Made by a program: the position numbers and the translations under genes
Source of the DNA: Cocleimonas flava
GTDB taxonomy: Bacteria; Pseudomonadota; Gammaproteobacteria; Thiotrichales; Thiotrichaceae
Length of the DNA stretch: 64,000 nt
Assembly: GCF_004339015.1 (NCBI RefSeq)
Contig: NZ_SMFQ01000003.1
Coordinates: forward strand, 558,001-622,000
Reading direction: 5' to 3'
Notes under the pieces: generated by a model
The model's input: only the letters and a program-made list of their open reading frames with translations
Database searches by the model: none
Told to the model about the DNA's origin: nothing
Shown: positions 3,634 through 44,682 of the stretch, in pieces
How the letters are laid out: every line of letters begins with the position of its first letter
Position numbering within the stretch: position 1 is the stretch's first letter

Positions 3634-4926
3634 CTATGAAAATAGAGCATTAGGTAACCAAAGAACTATGGAGGGAAATACTGTTAATAATGCTACTGCC
3701 ATCAATAGAATCAACCAGTAAGGTAAAGACGCTTTAGCAGCTTGTGCAACATTAACTTCATCTTTAGTAATAGCACTTAGTACGAATAGATTAAGACCTA
3801 CTGGTGGAGTAATCATCCCTACTTCCATTAATAACGTAACGATTATTCCAAACCAAACTGGGTCAAACCCCAAGCTTGTAACCATTGGGAATGTTATGGG
3901 AAGTGTCATTAGTAATAGTGAGATTCCATCAAAGAAGCAACCTAGAATGAGGTAAACAAGAACCACCATCACTAATACGCCATAACGATTAAATCCTAGT
4001 TCATTGATAATTTCGACAGCTTCTCGTGGTAATCCTAATAGGCTTACGGCTTGCGAAAGAATAGAGGTTCCGACTAAAATGAGAGCAATTGTCCCAAACA
4101 TAAAAGATGCACGGTTAAATGCTTGCCACAACTTTTTTGTAGTTAGGTCTCCCCAAAAAAAACCAATCACGATTGCAGCAGCTACACCTAATGCCGCTGC
4201 TTCTGTCGGTGTTGCGATACCCATATAAATGGTACCCAGCACGAAAAATATTAATATTGGAAGTGGCCATACTTGCATAAGACCTAATCCAACCTCTTTC
4301 CAACTAAATGGTTCTGTTGCTGGAGGGGCAATCTGGTTTCCTAAACGCGCCCTGATAAATATCCAGGTAGAAAAACCAATAGCTATAATTACCCCAGGAA
4401 TCAAACCTGCCATAAATAATTTGCCGATAGAGACACTTTGCGTTGCTCCATAAATTAGAAGAGCAAGGCTTGGGGGAATTAATAATCCAAGAGTACCTCC
4501 TGCAGCCAATGTTCCCACCACCATACTAGGTGAATAGCCACGTTCTTTAAGCTCGGGGTAACTAACAGAACCAATTGCGGCTGCTGTCGCAGTACTTGAA
4601 CCACTAACTGCTCCAAAGAGAGTACAGACAGCAATATTAGTATGTAATAACTGACCTGGAACCCGGCGAAACAAAGGTGTTAAACCATTATAGACTCTGG
4701 CTGATACACCACTAGCTAGTAAAATATCACCGAGGATTATAAATAGAGGAACTGCACTTAAAGTGAACTCTGTGAGTAGATTCCATGAAGAATTAATCGC
4801 TAAGGATGACGCTCCATTGGCCTGAAAGTGAAGTAGTATAAAACCAGTTAGACCTAAAGCTGCTGCTAGAATAGCGCCACTGCTTAGGAGAACTGCTAAA
4901 CTTGAACTTAAAATAAACCAACTCAT
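3634..4926 (-). CDS. dctM: TRAP transporter large permease, DctM-like
   Basis: A 430-residue protein with about 12 hydrophobic segments and typical DctM stretches: ALFGAVSGSSTATAAAIGSV (about 105-125), PELKERGYSPSMVVGTLAAGGTLG and IPPSLALLIYG. It is the channel subunit that uses the sodium gradient to move the ligand handed over by DctP. Its ATG overlaps the dctQ stop by 4 bp, implying translational coupling. Length is standard. It lies 221 bp upstream of the dipeptidase gene on the same strand. Confidence 0.95.
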   Translation of the reverse strand: MSWFILSSSLAVLLSSGAILAAALGLTGFILLHFQANGASSLAINSSWNLLTEFTLSAVPLFIILGDILLASGVSARVYNGLTPLFRRVPGQLLHTNIAVCTLFGAVSGSSTATAAAIGSVSYPELKERGYSPSMVVGTLAAGGTLGLLIPPSLALLIYGATQSVSIGKLFMAGLIPGVIIAIGFSTWIFIRARLGNQIAPPATEPFSWKEVGLGLMQVWPLPILIFFVLGTIYMGIATPTEAAALGVAAAIVIGFFWGDLTTKKLWQAFNRASFMFGTIALILVGTSILSQAVSLLGLPREAVEIINELGFNRYGVLVMVVLVYLILGCFFDGISLLLMTLPITFPMVTSLGFDPVWFGIIVTLLMEVGMITPPVGLNLFVLSAITKDEVNVAQAAKASLPYWLILLMAVALLTVFPSIVLWLPNALFS

Positions 4927-5423
4927 TGTTTTATTTCCTTCATAGTGTTGTTAAATAAATGTTTGAAGAGTTTATTTATTTCAACAATGACACAGAGAAT
5001 CATCGATAAAGGCATTAAAGCCATCCAAGGCCAAAGTAATATGCCGCTAACATCAGTTCTAGAGTTTATTTGTTTCGAAAACCCCATATATTTCCAAGCT
5101 TGGTAAGTAAACACGACTGCAAATGTTATAAAGACCAGCATTCCAAAATAGGCACATATTTTTTGAAGAAAAGAGGGCATTCTTTTTATGAGTAGATCAA
5201 GACTGATATGCCCTGATTCATTTAATATATGTGGAAATGTTGTAAAGGCCATTGTTAAAAAGAGAAGGCCTGCAAGTTCATCCGAAAATGAAATGGGTTG
5301 TCCTAAAACATATCGTAACAAAGTACTTACAAGTACTAATAAGGCCATAACAGCACCTGAAAATACTCCAATCTTAAAGAAGCTCTTCGCGGTGAAATCT
5401 ATAGCTCTGGAAAGTTTTAACAT
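4923..5423 (-). CDS. dctQ: TRAP transporter small permease, DctQ-like
   Basis: A 166-residue protein with four membrane helices and the DctQ features RYVLGQPISFSDELAGLLFLTMAF and SGHISLDLLIKRMP. DctQ forms the membrane complex with DctM. Its stop overlaps the start of dctM. The upstream gap to dctP holds a stable stem-loop, which in TRAP operons often lets the binding protein be made in excess. Confidence 0.94.
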   Translation of the reverse strand: MLKLSRAIDFTAKSFFKIGVFSGAVMALLVLVSTLLRYVLGQPISFSDELAGLLFLTMAFTTFPHILNESGHISLDLLIKRMPSFLQKICAYFGMLVFITFAVVFTYQAWKYMGFSKQINSRTDVSGILLWPWMALMPLSMILCVIVEINKLFKHLFNNTMKEIKQ

Positions 5424-29888: not shown

Positions 29889-30824
29889 ATGGACGTAAAA
29901 CAACTTTTTGATGCCGAACCAAAATCACCACTTTATGTTGCGATAAATAAAGTACTGGTGAAAAACGATCCGAATCTTATGCGCATGATGAAACAAGCGA
30001 GCGCGAAAATGTGCTTGGCAACATCGTTGACACCAGGTTTCAGTGGCTTTGATTTAATGAAACAAGTGGGTAGTTGTCCGATGGGAATGCGCTGGGGAGC
30101 TAGTTCAGACATGAGCGATGAGCTTTCTCATATCTGGATTGATCAAATCACTTACTGGGATTCCTGGCAAGCTCATGAAGACTTCCACGAAACGTTTGAA
30201 GATGTAGTCGTTGATACCTGCGCACGATGTGGTGATGTATTGCTTGAGGGGCCTGAAGAGCCTGTTTATCGCGTGGTGAAAAGTGATCTACCTTCATTAA
30301 TTTCAATGACCCAGTGGTTGCGAAAAAGTGCAGAAGGCAAAGCAGATGGTTACGCGGTTGATTCGGGTAACTCAGTTACAGTAATGGCGACGCATAAGAT
30401 TAAACCCGGTGCTGAAGCAGAATTTGAAGAAGGTGAAATTGCCACCATGGAAGGGTTGAAAGCAACTAGCGGTATGGTTGGTTATCAAATACTTAAGCGT
30501 ATTGGCATATCAACATTAGGCAGTGGTCATGCGACTGTAGAATCTATTATGGAAGATATGAAAAACAGTTCCGGGAGCAAACTCAAACGTACCGCAGAAG
30601 TATGGGAAGGTTATACCATTCCGGCTGAATATCTAGTGATGGTTGAATGGGACTCTTTGGGTGCTGCACAAGCTGGGATGCCACATGTAAATGTTAAGCC
30701 AGAATTATTATTCCAGCATGGCCCAAAAGTTTTAAACAACTGTTTGCACATGCCTACGGTAAGAATGTCTGATTCGATGTTCAGAGAACAAAGTAATCGA
30801 GAAATTTTAAACGGTAATAAATAA
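29889..30824 (+). CDS. sor: Sulfur oxygenase reductase (SOR)
   Basis: 311 residues, the same length as archaeal SOR (about 309). It can be aligned from memory with the Acidianus enzyme: Cys42 (KMCLATS) matches the persulfide cysteine 31, His96 and His100 (AHEDFH) with Glu124 match the iron ligands 86, 90 and 114, and Cys111/Cys114 (CARC) match 101/104, with an almost constant offset. The enzyme turns elemental sulfur plus oxygen into sulfite, thiosulfate and sulfide in the cytoplasm, without cofactors other than iron, as a large hollow oligomer. AAGGACACTCTA precedes the ATG. It is flanked on both sides by C-rich repeats, so it is a single-gene transcript. Confidence 0.93.
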   Translation: MDVKQLFDAEPKSPLYVAINKVLVKNDPNLMRMMKQASAKMCLATSLTPGFSGFDLMKQVGSCPMGMRWGASSDMSDELSHIWIDQITYWDSWQAHEDFHETFEDVVVDTCARCGDVLLEGPEEPVYRVVKSDLPSLISMTQWLRKSAEGKADGYAVDSGNSVTVMATHKIKPGAEAEFEEGEIATMEGLKATSGMVGYQILKRIGISTLGSGHATVESIMEDMKNSSGSKLKRTAEVWEGYTIPAEYLVMVEWDSLGAAQAGMPHVNVKPELLFQHGPKVLNNCLHMPTVRMSDSMFREQSNREILNGNK

Positions 30825-38465: not shown

Positions 38466-38825
38466 TTAAGATTTATCGTCTGTATCCTTGTCCATTTTTT
38501 GCTCATTGTCTTTGTCGATATCTTTGACGTTATCGTTATCATCTTTATCAATAACAGTATCATTACTCCGCTTTGATTCTTTTTGTTCTTCTTTTAATTG
38601 CTTGAGGAGCTTTAAACCTTTTTTTCGATGCGCGTGAATCAAGGCTAGTTCGTTTGATATTTTTTCTTTGTTACCGCGCCCTTCTGCGAATTTTAATTCG
38701 AGCTTTTTCTCACGTTTACGTAATTTATCCAGCACGTGCTTTAAGCACTTAATTTTGGATTTACGTTTTCGATTTTCGACGCCAAGGTATTCATCAGCTT
38801 TATCAATTAATTCACTAATCTTCAT
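38466..38825 (-). CDS. Small, highly charged coiled-coil protein
   Basis: The start at 38825 follows GGAGGGTAAGC; the longer frame to 38897 runs inside the Na/Pi gene and is unlikely. The 119-residue product has a long lysine/glutamate-rich coiled coil (about 15-80) and an acidic tail of repeated KD/DK units (DKDDNDNVKDIDKDNEQK). The start codon overlaps the end of the upstream transporter gene by 11 bp, so it is likely translated with it. Family not recognised; a role in the phosphate transport unit is inference. Confidence 0.7.
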   Translation of the reverse strand: MKISELIDKADEYLGVENRKRKSKIKCLKHVLDKLRKREKKLELKFAEGRGNKEKISNELALIHAHRKKGLKLLKQLKEEQKESKRSNDTVIDKDDNDNVKDIDKDNEQKMDKDTDDKS

Positions 38826-40659
38826 GCTTACCCTCCTTTGCTCCCTGCTCTGTTGTTTTACGTGCGGCAATTGCCTCGGCGGTCTCCTTTTCATCAAGCA
38901 TCAGACTCTTTTCAATCTCATGCAATGTTGTATTCTGACTCTTAAACAGAATTGTGCCGATCTCTATCAGCTTGTTGGCAATGTTATTAGTATAGCTATG
39001 ATCGTTCATGAGTGAGGTCGCCATCACTCCAGTGATATGTTTTTCGCGGATTAGTTGATTCATATCAGTAAAAAACTGCTTATCGGCTTCTAATACACCC
39101 ACTTTCATTGCCTCAAGTGTGGCTAAAGCGGTTCTATGTTCATCAGGATCGTTCTGCAAATCAGACAATCCCCTTAAAATAGAACCCAGCCGAAAACGTA
39201 TTTGGTTATATTCTGCACGAATATATGGGTTGGGATTGTTAATATAATGTGACAGATTTTTATGCAGATGCTGGATACTTTTGATGCTTTCCAGCATGGC
39301 TCTTCCCGCAGAACGTAATTCAAATACTTCATTACTTTGTTCTTGCGTCATATTCTCATTCGCCTTGCCAATAAAGTTAACGATCTCTGCATAGAGACCT
39401 TTTATTTTATTGGTATATTCTTCTTTGATATTGACCGGAATCGGTTTTCTGTGTGACTGAATAATCTCTTCTACCGGTATGTATGACTTAATATCCCTCT
39501 CTCTAAAACTCAAACCGTGACAGACAATGCCAAAATAGTATTTATAGAGGTTAAAGGTTTCTTTACGCACGGCTTCTAACGCCATCTCAGGCAGCTCCAA
39601 AGCCGCATCATTCAAATACAGAGGTTCAGCTATTTCATGTTCTTTTTCTGGTAATAGTTTGGTAATGAACAATCCCAGCTTATTAATAAATGGCAACATC
39701 AAGGCGATGCCAAGTAAATTAAATAAGGTATGAAATACCGCTAACTTCAAGGTGTAGTTATCACTGGCTATACCCAATTTAATCGATAACCAATCTACTG
39801 CTGTAATCAGTTGAGCGATTAAGGTAATGGCAACCAACCCGGTGACGACATTAAAAACCAGATGCGCTATCGCCAAACGTTTACCATTGATATTCGCACT
39901 GATCGAACCGATGATCGCTGTTACAGTCGTCCCGACATTGCTTCCAATAGCAAGCGCCAAGGCGTTTTCATAGGTAATTTGCTGACTAGCCAGCGCAGTG
40001 ATAATCAACACCAAAGTCGCATGGCTTGATTGCATGATTACGGTGGCGATGATTCCGATTAGGGTATAGATTAATAAGCCTTTTAATCCTGATAAGGCAT
40101 AAGCGGTCAAATCAATATGCTCACGAAAGGTTTCAAACCCTTCCTTCATATAATGAATACCGAGGAATAAAAAGCCTAAACCCGCCAGGATATAGCCAAT
40201 ACCTTTTAACTCTTTTGGTTTTTGTAAAACCAGAATAATGCCAAATACCAACATTGGCATCGCATAGGCGGATATATTAACTTTTAAGCCCAAACCAGCA
40301 ACCAACCAGGCGCCTGTTGTGGTACCCAGATTGGCACCAAAAATAATGCCAATACCCGACGCTAGCGTGATCAAACCTGCAGACAAGAAAGAAATGGTGA
40401 TGACCGAAACCAATGAGCTAGATTGCATGAGCGTGGTCGTCACCACACCAAAACTCATACTCTTCCATAAACCATTGGTGGTTTTATTCAGGATTTTTTC
40501 TAATAACCCTCCGGTGAAAGCTTTGAAGCCCTCTTCCAGAGAAAGCATGCCAAACAAAAATATGGCCACGCCCGCAGTAATCTCTTTCAGGTTAGGACTA
40601 ACCCAAAACCCGTATGACAATATAGCGAAAATACTTAAAAGCAGTATATTCCTAAACAT
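38815..40659 (-). CDS. Na/Pi cotransporter family protein with PhoU-like C-terminus
   Basis: 614 residues. The N-terminal about 330 residues have eight or more helices and two inverted QSS motifs (TTTLMQSSSLVSVITI and ATVIMQSSHATLVLII), which mark sodium-phosphate cotransporters (NptA/YjbB type). The C-terminal part (about 345-590) is helical and PhoU-like. It is followed by the overlapping small charged gene, and a Pit-type gene lies 153 bp upstream on the same strand, forming a phosphate transport cluster. Confidence 0.93.
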   Translation of the reverse strand: MFRNILLLSIFAILSYGFWVSPNLKEITAGVAIFLFGMLSLEEGFKAFTGGLLEKILNKTTNGLWKSMSFGVVTTTLMQSSSLVSVITISFLSAGLITLASGIGIIFGANLGTTTGAWLVAGLGLKVNISAYAMPMLVFGIILVLQKPKELKGIGYILAGLGFLFLGIHYMKEGFETFREHIDLTAYALSGLKGLLIYTLIGIIATVIMQSSHATLVLIITALASQQITYENALALAIGSNVGTTVTAIIGSISANINGKRLAIAHLVFNVVTGLVAITLIAQLITAVDWLSIKLGIASDNYTLKLAVFHTLFNLLGIALMLPFINKLGLFITKLLPEKEHEIAEPLYLNDAALELPEMALEAVRKETFNLYKYYFGIVCHGLSFRERDIKSYIPVEEIIQSHRKPIPVNIKEEYTNKIKGLYAEIVNFIGKANENMTQEQSNEVFELRSAGRAMLESIKSIQHLHKNLSHYINNPNPYIRAEYNQIRFRLGSILRGLSDLQNDPDEHRTALATLEAMKVGVLEADKQFFTDMNQLIREKHITGVMATSLMNDHSYTNNIANKLIEIGTILFKSQNTTLHEIEKSLMLDEKETAEAIAARKTTEQGAKEGKHED

Positions 40660-40777
40660 AGAAGTGATTATTCATTACGTTTTCTATTATTTTTCTTACC
40701 CTTCTTATTCTTAAATCAAACAACTCTTACTTAAATCACATAACCCTGCATCAAGCCTTTCAAAGGCTTTTCAGCTT

Positions 40778-40819
40778 ACAAGACTCAGATTACAAGACTA
40801 GGATTTCAAGACTAGGGAA
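40778..40819. repeat. 14 bp tandem repeat, three units, over the pit stop codon
   Basis: ACAAGACTCAGATT, ACAAGACTAGGATT and TCAAGACTAGGGAA. The last unit covers the stop codon of the phosphate transporter gene. Confidence 0.75.
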
Positions 40820-42380
40820 GCATCGCGCCTCTAATGGTGTAAAAAATCAATGCAGACAGTAATGCTGATGCGGGTACGGTAATCACCCATGCAGCCGCAA
40901 TTTTCAACAGCGCAGATCTCTTTACGAGTTCTTGGCGATAGACCTTCTTCAAGCTTTTGGTTTCGCGTTTCGTAAACTGAGCATCAGTTTTGTTATTTTT
41001 CAGCTCTTTCAACATGATACGTTTGCCCGCAACATTGGCTTTCTGGAAGTCTTCAAGAAACACTTCAACCACATGCTGCTCTGAACCTTCATGATGATCA
41101 ATGATTTCATCGACCATACGCTCGTATGACTTTTTCAGGTACTCACGTAAAAAACCAACACCAAAAATACCACCGACTGCAATATGCGTAGAACTTACGG
41201 GCAATCCTAATTGTGAGGCAATGATGACGGTTATCGAAGCTGCCATGGCAACACTAAATGCACGTAATTTATTCAATTCGGTGATTTCACTGCCTACAGT
41301 ACGAATTAGTTTTGGCCCAAACAATGCCAAGCCCAGGACGATACCTAATGCACCTACCATCATTACCCAGAATGGAATTGATGCTTTACTATGAATGCCA
41401 CCCTGTGTGATTGAATCATTGATCGCTGCTAATGGACCCACTGCGTTAGCAACGTCATTCGCACCGTGTGCGAAACTCAGCATGGCTGCGGCAAAAATAA
41501 GCGGTATGGTAAACAGGCTATTGATAGAGTCTTTCTCGTTTTCGAGCTTATCAGCCGCCTTAATAATTAGAGGCTTTATAATAAAATAGATCGCTAGTGC
41601 GATGAAAAAGCCCATGACAAAAGCCATTAGGAAATCTACTTTCCAGAGTTTTTTCAGACCTTTCATAATTAAATAGGTAGAAAAACTCCACGCCATTAAT
41701 GACAACAACAACGGAACGATCTTTTTCGCCGCTAGAATTTTGTCATCTTTATAGGTAATGGTATGTTTTATAAAGTACAAAAATCCTGCGGCTATCAAAC
41801 CTCCCAGCACCGGAGATATGACCCAACTAGAAGCGATAGCAGCCATCTTGTCCCAGTTAACAATTCCCCAACCACCGGCAGCTATACCAGCCCCCATTAC
41901 CCCACCAACAATGGAGTGAGTTGTCGATACCGGAGCGCCCACCGAGGTCGCAAAGTTTAGCCACACAGCACCAGCCAGTAATGCCGCCATCATCAGCCAG
42001 ATAAAGACATTGCTGTCCTGAATAATATCGGGGTTTATAATACCTTTTTTGATGGTACTGACCACATCGCCACCGGCTATCAATGCCCCTGCAGCTTCAA
42101 ATACACCTGCAATCAAAATGGCCCCAACCAGTGTCAAAGCTTTCGAACCAACCGCTGGGCCTACATTATTAGCAACATCATTCGCGCCAATATTTAAAGC
42201 CATATAACCACCGATCATCGCTGCCACGATTAACATGATTCGATGCGGAACATCAGGAATATTAAAATGGGTATAGAGCATAATACCAATCATAAATACC
42301 AACACGATAGCCATGCGCAGCGATTCACTTTTACTGAAGCCCGTGTTTTCTTCAATTTTATTTATGCTCGACAAATCCAT
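40812..42380 (-). CDS. Inorganic phosphate transporter, Pit family
   Basis: 522 residues, about twelve helices. The two family signatures are GANDVANNVGPAVGSKAL and GANDVANAVGPLAA, with PVSTTHSIVGG and PVSSTHIAVGG nearby. It takes up metal-phosphate with protons, or sodium in some relatives. An N-terminal extension of about 50 residues and a cytoplasmic loop (about 420-480) rich in KKSYERMV and HHEGSEQHV are features of the longer Pit subgroup. One CTGTCAT lies just upstream of the start, but no full Pho box. Confidence 0.94.
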   Translation of the reverse strand: MDLSSINKIEENTGFSKSESLRMAIVLVFMIGIMLYTHFNIPDVPHRIMLIVAAMIGGYMALNIGANDVANNVGPAVGSKALTLVGAILIAGVFEAAGALIAGGDVVSTIKKGIINPDIIQDSNVFIWLMMAALLAGAVWLNFATSVGAPVSTTHSIVGGVMGAGIAAGGWGIVNWDKMAAIASSWVISPVLGGLIAAGFLYFIKHTITYKDDKILAAKKIVPLLLSLMAWSFSTYLIMKGLKKLWKVDFLMAFVMGFFIALAIYFIIKPLIIKAADKLENEKDSINSLFTIPLIFAAAMLSFAHGANDVANAVGPLAAINDSITQGGIHSKASIPFWVMMVGALGIVLGLALFGPKLIRTVGSEITELNKLRAFSVAMAASITVIIASQLGLPVSSTHIAVGGIFGVGFLREYLKKSYERMVDEIIDHHEGSEQHVVEVFLEDFQKANVAGKRIMLKELKNNKTDAQFTKRETKSLKKVYRQELVKRSALLKIAAAWVITVPASALLSALIFYTIRGAMLP

Positions 42381-42774: not shown

Positions 42775-42810
42775 AAAAAAAAAGGAGCCACTAATTGTGA
42801 CTCCTTTTTT
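42775..42810. terminator. Terminator after the mini-SOR gene
   Basis: GGAGCCAC and GTGACTCC pair (one G-T wobble), with A-runs and T-runs on both sides. On the minus strand it lies 29 bp beyond the stop at 42839. Confidence 0.9.
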
Positions 42811-42838
42811 ATACAACATAATTAAATGAGGAAATGCG

Positions 42839-43252
42839 TTATTCAGGAACACCCTGCCATAACATCTCATAACCTAATTCATGAGTGTCATCACAGAAGG
42901 TTGCTAACTCGTCAAACTTCTCTTTGAACAGTTTGTCAGCATGTGATTTTTCATGTTGCTCAAACGATTTCCAATAAGTAATGATGGCAACTTCACCAGT
43001 CTTCACTTTCTCTGCTTTTTCTTTTTCGGCTGATGACTCAGCACCTACCGAACCTTCTTCTGAGATAAACCCAGCGTATTTAAAAACCTGACCACCGATA
43101 AAACCGCCTTTATCATCGCCATAGTTATTTTTAACTACATTGCACATTTCGCCGAGAGTTAACTCAACATCCTCAATACTAACGCCCTCTTTCAGGTCTA
43201 CGACATTAAATAGCATGACGCAGCCAAAAGGTATTTCAATCGGGTGAAACAT
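42839..43252 (-). CDS. Half-length SOR-like protein (single dimeric alpha+beta barrel unit)
   Basis: 137 residues. It shows the N-terminal SOR pattern but no second half. EMCNVV (Cys37) matches the KMC cysteine of the SOR encoded at 29889, GGFIGG matches GFSGF, and TYWKSFEQHEKSH (His100, His104) matches TYWDSWQAHEDFH. The end WQGVPE resembles the GPEEP glutamate region, and Glu137 or Glu129 could be the third iron ligand. It is preceded on the same strand by a small cytochrome c, 68 bp away, and ended by a terminator. The reaction is unknown; iron binding and sulfur chemistry are inferred from the motif. Confidence 0.6.
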   Translation of the reverse strand: MFHPIEIPFGCVMLFNVVDLKEGVSIEDVELTLGEMCNVVKNNYGDDKGGFIGGQVFKYAGFISEEGSVGAESSAEKEKAEKVKTGEVAIITYWKSFEQHEKSHADKLFKEKFDELATFCDDTHELGYEMLWQGVPE

Positions 43253-43320
43253 AGTTTTCTCCTGTTAATCTAATGAGTTATTGTTACTTATAAGATGGGG
43301 TAAAAATGATTAATTTCAAT

Positions 43321-43623
43321 CTACTGCTTAGGGAATTTGTAGAAACTATCGTTCAGGTATTCAGTGATCTCTTCCATGTCTTCGTCAAACAGAGACGTAC
43401 CTAAATTGGCATCACACATTCTCACCATTGACCCCAGACCTTTAAAATCTTTGATACGACGATCTTTGCGCGTGTAGAATTTTTCGTCGTGATTACCTCG
43501 ATGACAATTAAGGCAATTCTCATCGTGTAAGGCTTTACCCGACATTTCCTCATCAGCAAATGCAGATACACTGAAAGCTGATGACAATAAGAGGCTACTT
43601 AAAGCTAATGATAAAAACTTCAT
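43321..43623 (-). CDS. Small periplasmic cytochrome c
   Basis: 100 residues: signal peptide (about 1-23, SVSAFA), one heme-binding CLNCH (Cys37, Cys40, His41), and a Met (GSMVRM) that can be the sixth ligand. The C-terminal helix EDMEEITEYLNDSFY is typical of class I cytochromes. The cognate partner may be the next gene, the half-length SOR-like protein, but that one has no signal peptide, so a direct complex is doubtful. It also could serve respiratory sulfur oxidation. Confidence 0.85.
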   Translation of the reverse strand: MKFLSLALSSLLLSSAFSVSAFADEEMSGKALHDENCLNCHRGNHDEKFYTRKDRRIKDFKGLGSMVRMCDANLGTSLFDEDMEEITEYLNDSFYKFPKQ

Positions 43624-43773: not shown

Positions 43774-44682
43774 TCACGATAAGTGCGACATATTTTTGCG
43801 CCCGTGCTCTACCAGTAAATCCACACAATCGTGCAGATAGCTCTTCATAAACTTACTTTTTACATACGCCACTGTGGTCGTGGAATACGGAAAAAACTCG
43901 GATAAATCTCGCATAATAAGATCACTATCATTCTGCTCCGAATACGCCATGCGTGAGATAATTCCCGCACCAAAGCCTAACCGCACGTAACTTTTGATCA
44001 CGTCAGTATCCGTAGCCGCGAATGTCACATCCATCTCCAGCCCTTTTTCTTTAAAAGTCTCATGAATTTTAGTGCGACCTGTAAATCCAAACACATAGGT
44101 AAGCAGAGGAAATTCTGCAATACGCTCAAGCGTGAGCTTACCTTTTTCAAGCGGATGACCTGGCGGTACAATCAATGCATGGTTCCAGTCATAACATTTC
44201 TTTTTCACCAGATCCGCGTGTTCTGCTAATTCTTCGGTACAAACAGCGATATCGGCTTCACGCTTATGCAGCATATCGACCAATTGTGTTGGCTTCCCCT
44301 GAAGAAAGTGAATTTTGACTTTCGGGTATTTTTCACGGAACTGATTCAGCACTTCAGGCAAAAAGTATTTCGCCTGCATGTGGGTTGTTGCCAGACGTAA
44401 TTCACCGACACGGGCATCACGATGGTCGTCTGCTACCGCTCTTATATTATCCATCGCCAATTCGAGTTGATCGACTTCTTTACAGATATCGAGACACAAC
44501 GGGGTGGGTTCTACCAACCGTTTTCCTTTACGGATAAACAATGGCATGCCTAATTCATCTTCCAGCAAACTCAGCTGTCGACTAACCGCAGATTGCACCA
44601 CATAAGTCTGCTTAGCCGCTTCGCTAATATTTAAACCGTTATTTAATAAAATTTTGAGTAATTGTAATTGTGTAATTTTCAT
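43774..44682 (-). CDS. cysB: LysR-type regulator CysB/Cbl-like
   Basis: 302 residues from the start at 44682 (the longer frame to 44760 adds a non-conserved leader). The N-terminal helix-turn-helix is typical: LKILLNNGLNISEAAKQTYVVQSAVSRQLSLLEDELG. The sensor domain carries LRLATTHMQAKYFLP, close to the CysB sequence that binds acetylserine or sulfate. It is divergent from cysJ, so it probably activates the sulfite reductase genes in sulfur limitation. Confidence 0.9.
   Translation of the reverse strand: MKITQLQLLKILLNNGLNISEAAKQTYVVQSAVSRQLSLLEDELGMPLFIRKGKRLVEPTPLCLDICKEVDQLELAMDNIRAVADDHRDARVGELRLATTHMQAKYFLPEVLNQFREKYPKVKIHFLQGKPTQLVDMLHKREADIAVCTEELAEHADLVKKKCYDWNHALIVPPGHPLEKGKLTLERIAEFPLLTYVFGFTGRTKIHETFKEKGLEMDVTFAATDTDVIKSYVRLGFGAGIISRMAYSEQNDSDLIMRDLSEFFPYSTTTVAYVKSKFMKSYLHDCVDLLVEHGRKNMSHLS

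Follow-up and report, generated by a model that had tools for sequence, protein, structure and literature searches.

The window, that is, the whole stretch of 64,000 nucleotides analysed here, carries at 42839..43252 on the minus strand an open reading frame with an ATG start that encodes a protein of 137 residues, a half-length relative of sulfur oxygenase reductase (SOR) belonging to what we term type I. A Shine-Dalgarno-like AGGAG (43259..43263, minus strand), picked out by eye, lies 6 bases upstream of the ATG, and inspection by eye found no signal peptide on the protein. The codons of the residues discussed below are those of Cys37 (43142..43144), His100 (42953..42955), His104 (42941..42943), Cys120 (42893..42895) and Glu125 (42878..42880), all on the minus strand. 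The features to which the earlier note had drawn attention, namely Cys37, GGFIGG and TYWKSFEQHEKSH matching TYWDSWQAHEDFH of the full-length SOR encoded at 29889..30824 on the plus strand, are all present. This longer protein, used for comparison, matches the Pfam SOR model PF07682 with an E-value of 4e-64 (216.8 bits) and represents a divergent subfamily: it shares 30-32% identity with the classical SORs of A3, our alignment of seven full SORs, and scores below the NCBIfam cut-off. Among PDB sequences, A3 matches 9rdn best. No sign of linkage was found between the window SOR and the short gene.

Upstream of the short gene and on the same minus strand are a gene for a one-heme (CLNCH) cytochrome c-like protein (43321..43623), which has a signal-peptide-like start by eye and Pfam matches below cut-off, and a gene for a CysB-type LysR regulator (43774..44682), 302 residues long from its ATG, whose match to the CysB model (E 1.5e-96) is below the curated cut-off and whose listed open reading frame opens at TTG 44760. 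The sulfite reductase genes, named by eye, are divergent, and the order is the one described in the earlier note. On the downstream side, an imperfect inverted repeat with T runs (42777-42813) looks terminator-like by eye and was not reported by the pattern scan; further on, two phosphate-transporter-like genes (38815-42380, minus strand) are presumably Na/Pi symporter-like and PitA-like. With regard to co-transcription with the cytochrome gene, the pattern scan gave no more promoters or terminators than shuffled sequences did.

This arrangement is not kept elsewhere. Among 111 loci (one of them, L002, not of the family, and some contigs fetched twice), a single Cocleimonas genome, apart from the window genome, has the cytochrome gene next to the short gene, and the five genomes with a CysB-type neighbour all belong to the window's genus. 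The proposed pairing with cytochrome c was therefore rejected as a general partnership. No constant bacterial partner emerged from clustering 1001 open reading frames around 80 loci, in which the short gene was recovered as an open reading frame in 68 and the other 12 were not placed, or from the reading frames around 40 further regions; in this survey, which the earlier note had suggested, the bacterial neighbours differ from locus to locus. Single cases may be recorded. Genes of the dsrC family lie near the short gene in L053 and L085, and about 7 kb off in L110. A sulfate adenylyltransferase gene (sat) is the nearest reading frame downstream of the type II gene in L203 (6864-8051) and the fourth in L210 (8144-9358). 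In five of the 40 further regions (L194, L198, L203, L204 and L216) an HtrA/DegP-like protease gene, named by eye, lies upstream, and small heat-shock-like or DnaJ-like genes are present in some of these five. Two small proteins that looked DsrE-like by eye (L199, L213) had no NCBIfam match and were discarded.

Taken alone, the window protein gives weak matches to known families. Its first Pfam match is SOR (PF07682), with E 0.011 and 15 bits where the cut-off is 25, and with the NCBIfam SOR model NF047630 it scores 11.3, below the cut-off of 400. The Pfam ABM model (PF03992) does not match it, and phmmer found nothing among PDB sequences up to E 10. When 15 members of the family alignment A1 were compared with Pfam at E up to 1, SOR was matched by 10/15 (best E 0.0021), DUF6965 by 9/15 and Monooxy_af470-like by 4/15, all weakly, and ABM by 2/15 (best E 0.019, below the family cut-off). 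No Pfam model rose above its cut-off for these 15 members, and no NCBIfam model did so for the window protein.

A family profile pooling both sequence types scored 37.7 against A3; it scored 34.7 against the N-terminal half of SOR versus 16.7 against the C-terminal half. With ABM-like proteins it reached 22.4 when 12 of them were aligned and no more than 26.2 when they were taken singly, and the highest score among 200 column-shuffled SOR alignments was 25.1. The value of 26.2, given by the ABM-like protein L185, is just above the best column shuffle. The hhalign probabilities are modest, at 47% for type I against A3 and 66% for both types pooled. An hmmsearch of A1 against 177,635 PDB sequences placed the SOR 6m35 at the top (E 4e-4; best stretch alone E 0.0066), with eight further SOR sequences at E 0.15 to 1 and unrelated proteins intermixed from E 0.43; the bacterial SOR structures 9rdn and 6qpa were not among the matches. 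On the strength of the profile scores and the PDB search, the short protein is remotely related to the N-terminal half of SOR, but by family cut-offs it is not an SOR; since it lacks several SOR-defining features, we call it SOR-related. The membership that the earlier note had deduced from motifs is thus borne out, with the profile preferring the SOR N-terminal half over the C-terminal half, ABM and shuffles, and the profile-to-profile comparison recommended there comes out in favour of SOR over ABM. The second ferredoxin-like half is indeed lacking, as neither the length of 137 residues, nor the profile, nor the predicted fold leaves a counterpart for it.

Conservation was evaluated over 118 distinct short sequences of at least 115 residues, the window protein included. 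Scans with alternative patterns, Cys37 being part of one of the two, contributed 67 of these, and homologue searches of genomes contributed 50; neither the histidines nor Glu125 formed part of any pattern. Cys37, His100, Glu101, Ser103 and His104 are invariant in 118/118, so that the claimed conservation of Cys37 and the HxxxH pair holds throughout. Glu125, Tyr128 and Trp132 are found in 117/117 (one sequence ends early), and Cys120 is present in 113 and missing in 5. In the hmmsearch alignment to 6m35 the family histidines sit on chain positions 86 and 90, counted by hand, which makes His100 and His104 the counterparts of the SOR iron ligands His86 and His90. Through alignment of 7 SORs and 24 short proteins with MAFFT in three modes, it was found each time that Cys37 pairs with Cys42 of the window SOR (as it also does in hhalign), taken here as Cys31 of archaeal SORs, that His100 and His104 pair with the SOR histidines, and that Glu125 pairs with the glutamate numbered Glu124 in the window SOR, xx[YF] following in both families. 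Unlike the three MAFFT modes, global hhalign leaves Glu125 unaligned. Cys120 pairs with the second cysteine of the SOR CxxC motif in two modes and with the first in the third; the CxxC pair itself (Cys101/Cys104) is not kept, the short proteins having a single cysteine there.

We take 6m35 to be the Sulfurisphaera SOR, the enzyme of the mutagenesis work mentioned next, and the numbers Cys31 and Glu114 were carried over to the aligned SOR residues by spacing, on our assumption that they correspond. In that work, alanine mutants of His86, His90, Glu114 and Cys31 are inactive, and those of Cys101 and Cys104 are about ten-fold weaker (PMC7398979). By alignment, the 2-His-1-Glu set of SOR has sequence counterparts in the short family, in His100/His104 and in Glu125. 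The latter, which lies in an ExxY motif on the last strand, is proposed as the third iron ligand (Glu114 in SOR); this candidate for completing the iron triad had been overlooked in the earlier note. Glu129 was also considered for this role and rejected, because the position varies among the 118 sequences.

The AlphaFold2 model built from 67 sequences has a mean pLDDT of 85, with its weakest part at residues 71-80, and the order β-α-β-β-α-β; the predicted fold is a single ferredoxin-like domain. The best fold matches among those listed are ABM-type barrels, RslO4 (7bio; Z 13.3, rmsd 1.5, 97 aligned residues) and SnoaB (3kg0; Z 13.2). No SOR chain appears among the best 50 Foldseek matches or the best 50 VIA-align matches, an absence that is no evidence, because it concerns the best 50 of each search only. 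A barrel of this kind is built either from two chains that dimerise or from one chain whose domain has been duplicated and fused (PMC4835899); for this reason, the short protein would probably be a homodimer. The earlier note had named a better match to ABM together with unconserved Cys37 and HxxxH as the finding that would count against kinship with SOR. What was found is a sequence that favours SOR and a monomer fold nearest to ABM-type barrels among the matches listed.

The gene is present in 34/95 related genomes, the window genome counted, and homologues in the same family are 71-92% identical. Between the window copy and the Cocleimonas copy, dS is about 1.5 and dN 0.05. A scan of one genome per species, covering 84,980 species, yielded 479 relatives among 525 candidate stretches, of which the best 80 were named. 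These best 80 of 479 include Thiothrix, Leucothrix, Thiofilum, Thiodiazotropha, SUP05, Ruthturnera and Sulfuriflexus, all of them sulfur oxidisers, as well as many MAGs, and the best named match to the window protein among them is an uncultured Cocleimonas (91%). Five records titled Hyphomicrobiales, Halobacteria archaeon or Alphaproteobacteria (L040, L041, L048, L055, L071) share 75-78% identity with the window protein and appear to be gammaproteobacterial contigs that were binned wrongly. The plasmid search gave no match. Two types can be told apart, type I (the window protein, about 137 residues) and type II (about 155 residues, 35-42% identical to the window protein); a quick tree of 61 rows separates them with full SH-aLRT support, and both occur together in G101, G170, G271 and G332, typed by score and, where fetched, by sequence.

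In a sample of 276 genomes of the window's class with completeness of at least 90%, 57 genomes from 38 families carry the gene, two of these matches being fragments of 29 and 61 residues (G121, G236). The marker dsrA (TIGR02064) is found in 91/276 and soxB, above cut-off, in 116/276. Fifty of the 57 carriers have dsrA, 53 have soxB and all 57 have at least one of them, versus 0/150 carriers among genomes with neither; where both markers are present, 46/81 genomes carry the short gene and 35/81 do not. Fisher's test for dsrA gives P ~3e-22 when related genomes are treated as independent. In a sample of the phylum 8/328 genomes carry the gene, the window genome among them, and six of the other seven have soxB, the exception being G436. 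Three carriers have small genomes of 1.0-1.1 Mb (G186, G286, G314); G097, a dsrA genome of 1.1 Mb from the same genus as G314, is without the gene. The earlier note mentioned neither the two types nor the phage copies described below, nor the confinement of carriers in the class sample to genomes that have dsrA or soxB. Phototrophy was tried as a gauge of oxygen need and abandoned: photosystem genes occur in 0/57 carriers, and the comparison is uninformative because they also occur in 0/41 dsrA genomes without the short gene.

Full-length SOR is above cut-off in 10/276 genomes of the class sample, five scoring in the range of the window SOR and five in a higher range. Six of the ten, the window genome included, also carry the short gene, which argues against plain redundancy between the two. 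Seven further Pfam SOR matches in this sample lie below the cut-off, and one of them (G118:C136) is not at a short-gene position.

Type I relatives, with 54-67% identity, were also found on 12 IMG/VR contigs out of 67 candidate stretches; INPHARED, queried with the L161 copy, gave no match. All 10 proteins taken from L158-L161, L166 and L169 match PHROGs phage families, comprising gp32-like ssDNA-binding protein, DNA end protector, tail tube, baseplate hub, tape measure, tail protein, dCTP deaminase and nucleases, with L159 represented only by dCTP deaminase/dUTPase. Ten more proteins of L158 and L160 include UvsX-like, clamp loader, helicase, RIIA, baseplate and tail fibre proteins. These tests left out L167 and L168; L162-L165 share genes with L161, and L161-L165 are near copies of one phage lineage. 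In a tree, L161, L163 and L166-L169 group with the bacterial copy of G314, the 1.1 Mb dsrA genome (SH-aLRT 98), L169 and the G314 copy being flagged as long branches. Changes between phage copies are mostly silent (dN 0.015 and dS 0.57 for L166/L168; dN 0.017 and dS 0.055 for L161/L163).

The dsrC/tusE model TIGR03342 is above cut-off in 6/12 of the IMG/VR records, many of which are fragments. The dsrC/tusE gene lies directly upstream in L161, L162, L164 and L165, ending 121 bases before the short gene; one reading frame intervenes in L163 and several in L169. The gene product, whose last residues are GCV or GCI, has one C-terminal cysteine; the second cysteine, presumably a DsrC trait, is missing, and for that reason the protein is TusE-like. 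IscU/NifU_N is encoded upstream of the short gene in L160 and, as a partial match, in L159; A-type carrier genes lie nearby in L159, L160, L166 (just below cut-off) and L168, and other neighbours are glutaredoxin (L166) and AhpC (L163). A Rieske ring-hydroxylating oxygenase-like gene (3868-4998) is directly upstream of the short gene in L168. Published work describes NifU, IscA, GrxD and TusA as common around dsrC and sox genes in phages (PMC8190135), the main text of which contains no word beginning with "oxygenase", and dsrC in SUP05 phages (PMC4164917), where the sole oxygenase named in the passages considered is a 2OG-Fe(II) oxygenase, of a different family.

We propose that the short protein may be a cytoplasmic mononuclear non-heme iron protein acting like one SOR half. 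Two copies would form a homodimeric α-β barrel, each binding iron via His100, His104 and Glu125; Cys37 would take up sulfane sulfur as a persulfide, and the bound sulfur would then be oxygenated, most likely to sulfite, inside sulfur-oxidising bacteria. The sulfur would probably be supplied by small persulfides or by a carrier of the DsrC/TusE/TusA kind. We judge the chances to be about evenly balanced that the protein is a persulfide enzyme of this kind, resembling one half of SOR: cytoplasmic, homodimeric, with mononuclear iron, and serving sulfur oxidation. A more specific version is offered tentatively and may well prove wrong: the protein would be a core enzyme of lithotrophic sulfur oxidation, a homodimeric cytoplasmic persulfide dioxygenase, SOR-derived or SOR-ancestral, that converts sulfur from DsrC/TusE/TusA-type carriers to sulfite, and its gene would be an auxiliary metabolic gene of T4-like phages of sulfur oxidisers, alongside dsrC/tusE.

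The first of these two readings is favoured by the profile kinship with the SOR N-terminal half together with counterparts of the four essential residues, by the closeness of the predicted fold to dimeric α-β barrels, by the confinement of carriers to genomes with dsrA or soxB (57/57 versus 0/150, and soxB in 6/7 further carriers of the phylum), by the retention of the gene in genomes as small as 1.0-1.1 Mb, and by the few amino-acid changes in the phage copies and the dsrC/tusE genes on 6/12 of their contigs. Against it, SOR works as a two-domain chain inside a closed 24-mer, and the site of a free dimer would be less enclosed; CxxC is cut to one cysteine, itself missing in 5/118; the Pfam SOR matches stay below cut-off, and 9rdn and 6qpa did not appear in the PDB search; 35/81 genomes with both markers, and G097, are without the gene, whose bacterial neighbourhoods are not conserved. 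Moreover, conserved residues alone would also fit a persulfide carrier or sensor, and the TusE-like phage protein with nearby iron-sulfur assembly genes would fit sulfur transfer. This is the strongest rival explanation, somewhat unlikely in our estimate: persulfide handling without oxygen, by a metal-dependent carrier, transferase or sensor feeding DsrC/TusE, TusA or iron-sulfur assembly. It would account for the invariant Cys37 and for the phage neighbours dsrC/tusE, IscU/NifU_N, A-type carriers and glutaredoxin, and PMC8190135 shows a similar phage gene pattern. A carrier, however, would not need the full 2-His-1-Glu set, which is nevertheless invariant along with ExxY, and iron-sulfur assembly is universal, whereas in the class sample the gene occurs only with dsrA or soxB.

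The remaining explanations appear less probable. Counterparts of the same essential residues could also belong to a miniature of the full SOR, which, as part of a larger oligomer, would use O2 to disproportionate elemental sulfur into sulfite, thiosulfate and sulfide; with the second half absent, a single cysteine in the CxxC region and the short gene held by 6/10 genomes that have a full SOR as well, we think this improbable. Still less probable is an ordinary ABM-type protein that merely resembles SOR and either binds heme or acts on an organic substrate as an oxygenase or isomerase free of cofactors: the ABM-type barrels that best match the monomer among the matches listed (Z ~13) and the score of L185 just over the best shuffle speak for it, but this fold is common to a large superfamily, SOR outscores ABM in the profile comparison (37.7 versus 22.4) and among the 15 Pfam-searched members (10 versus 2), and the cysteine with the HxxxH...E set is an SOR trait. 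Very improbable, and weakened by the neighbour search, is a role as accessory of the adjoining cytochrome c or of CysB-regulated sulfur assimilation; the gene order in the window and the genus suggests it, yet homologues elsewhere have other neighbours, and the cytochrome has a signal-peptide-like start whereas, by eye, the short protein has none.

In the open-licence full-text literature we found no description of half-length or truncated SOR-like proteins or dimeric SOR relatives, and no SOR relative of the short kind in the carrier genera or in phages; together with the absence of any Pfam or NCBIfam model above cut-off, this agrees with the view that the protein is an undescribed small relative of SOR. 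That so short a relative keeps the catalytic residues suggests that a step in bacterial sulfur oxidation has been overlooked. The known SOR is a barrel of two fused halves, about 310 residues long, that assembles into a hollow sphere of 24 chains, and it is sparse in the class sample (10/276). A half-length relative in 57 genomes, very reduced ones included, and in phages would indicate an overlooked step from sulfane sulfur to sulfite. The family would also be a living model of the single-domain state before duplication and fusion gave SOR, and its gene would join those by which viruses may alter sulfur oxidation.

Compared with SOR (PF07682, NF047630; PDB 6m35, 2cb2, 9rdn), the short family shares homology to the N-terminal half, counterparts of Cys31, His86, His90 and Glu114, and a GF motif after the cysteine. 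It differs in length (137-155 residues versus about 310), and the second ferredoxin-like half and CxxC are found on the SOR side only. With the dimeric α-β barrels of the ABM superfamily (PF03992) it shares, according to the model, a single ferredoxin-like domain, and it would probably dimerise as they do; in contrast, the sequence similarity is weak, and to our knowledge the HxxxH...E set plus cysteine is not an ABM trait. Persulfide dioxygenases of the ETHE1/Blh type carry out iron-dependent oxygenation of persulfides to sulfite on a metallo-β-lactamase fold, and would thus be alike in the proposed chemistry and unrelated in fold. As for viruses, the short-gene phages have dsrC/tusE in common with the sulfur phages carrying dsrC, dsrA and soxYZ (PMC8190135; PMC4164917), and the phages of the former resemble them further in their NifU, IscA and GrxD genes.
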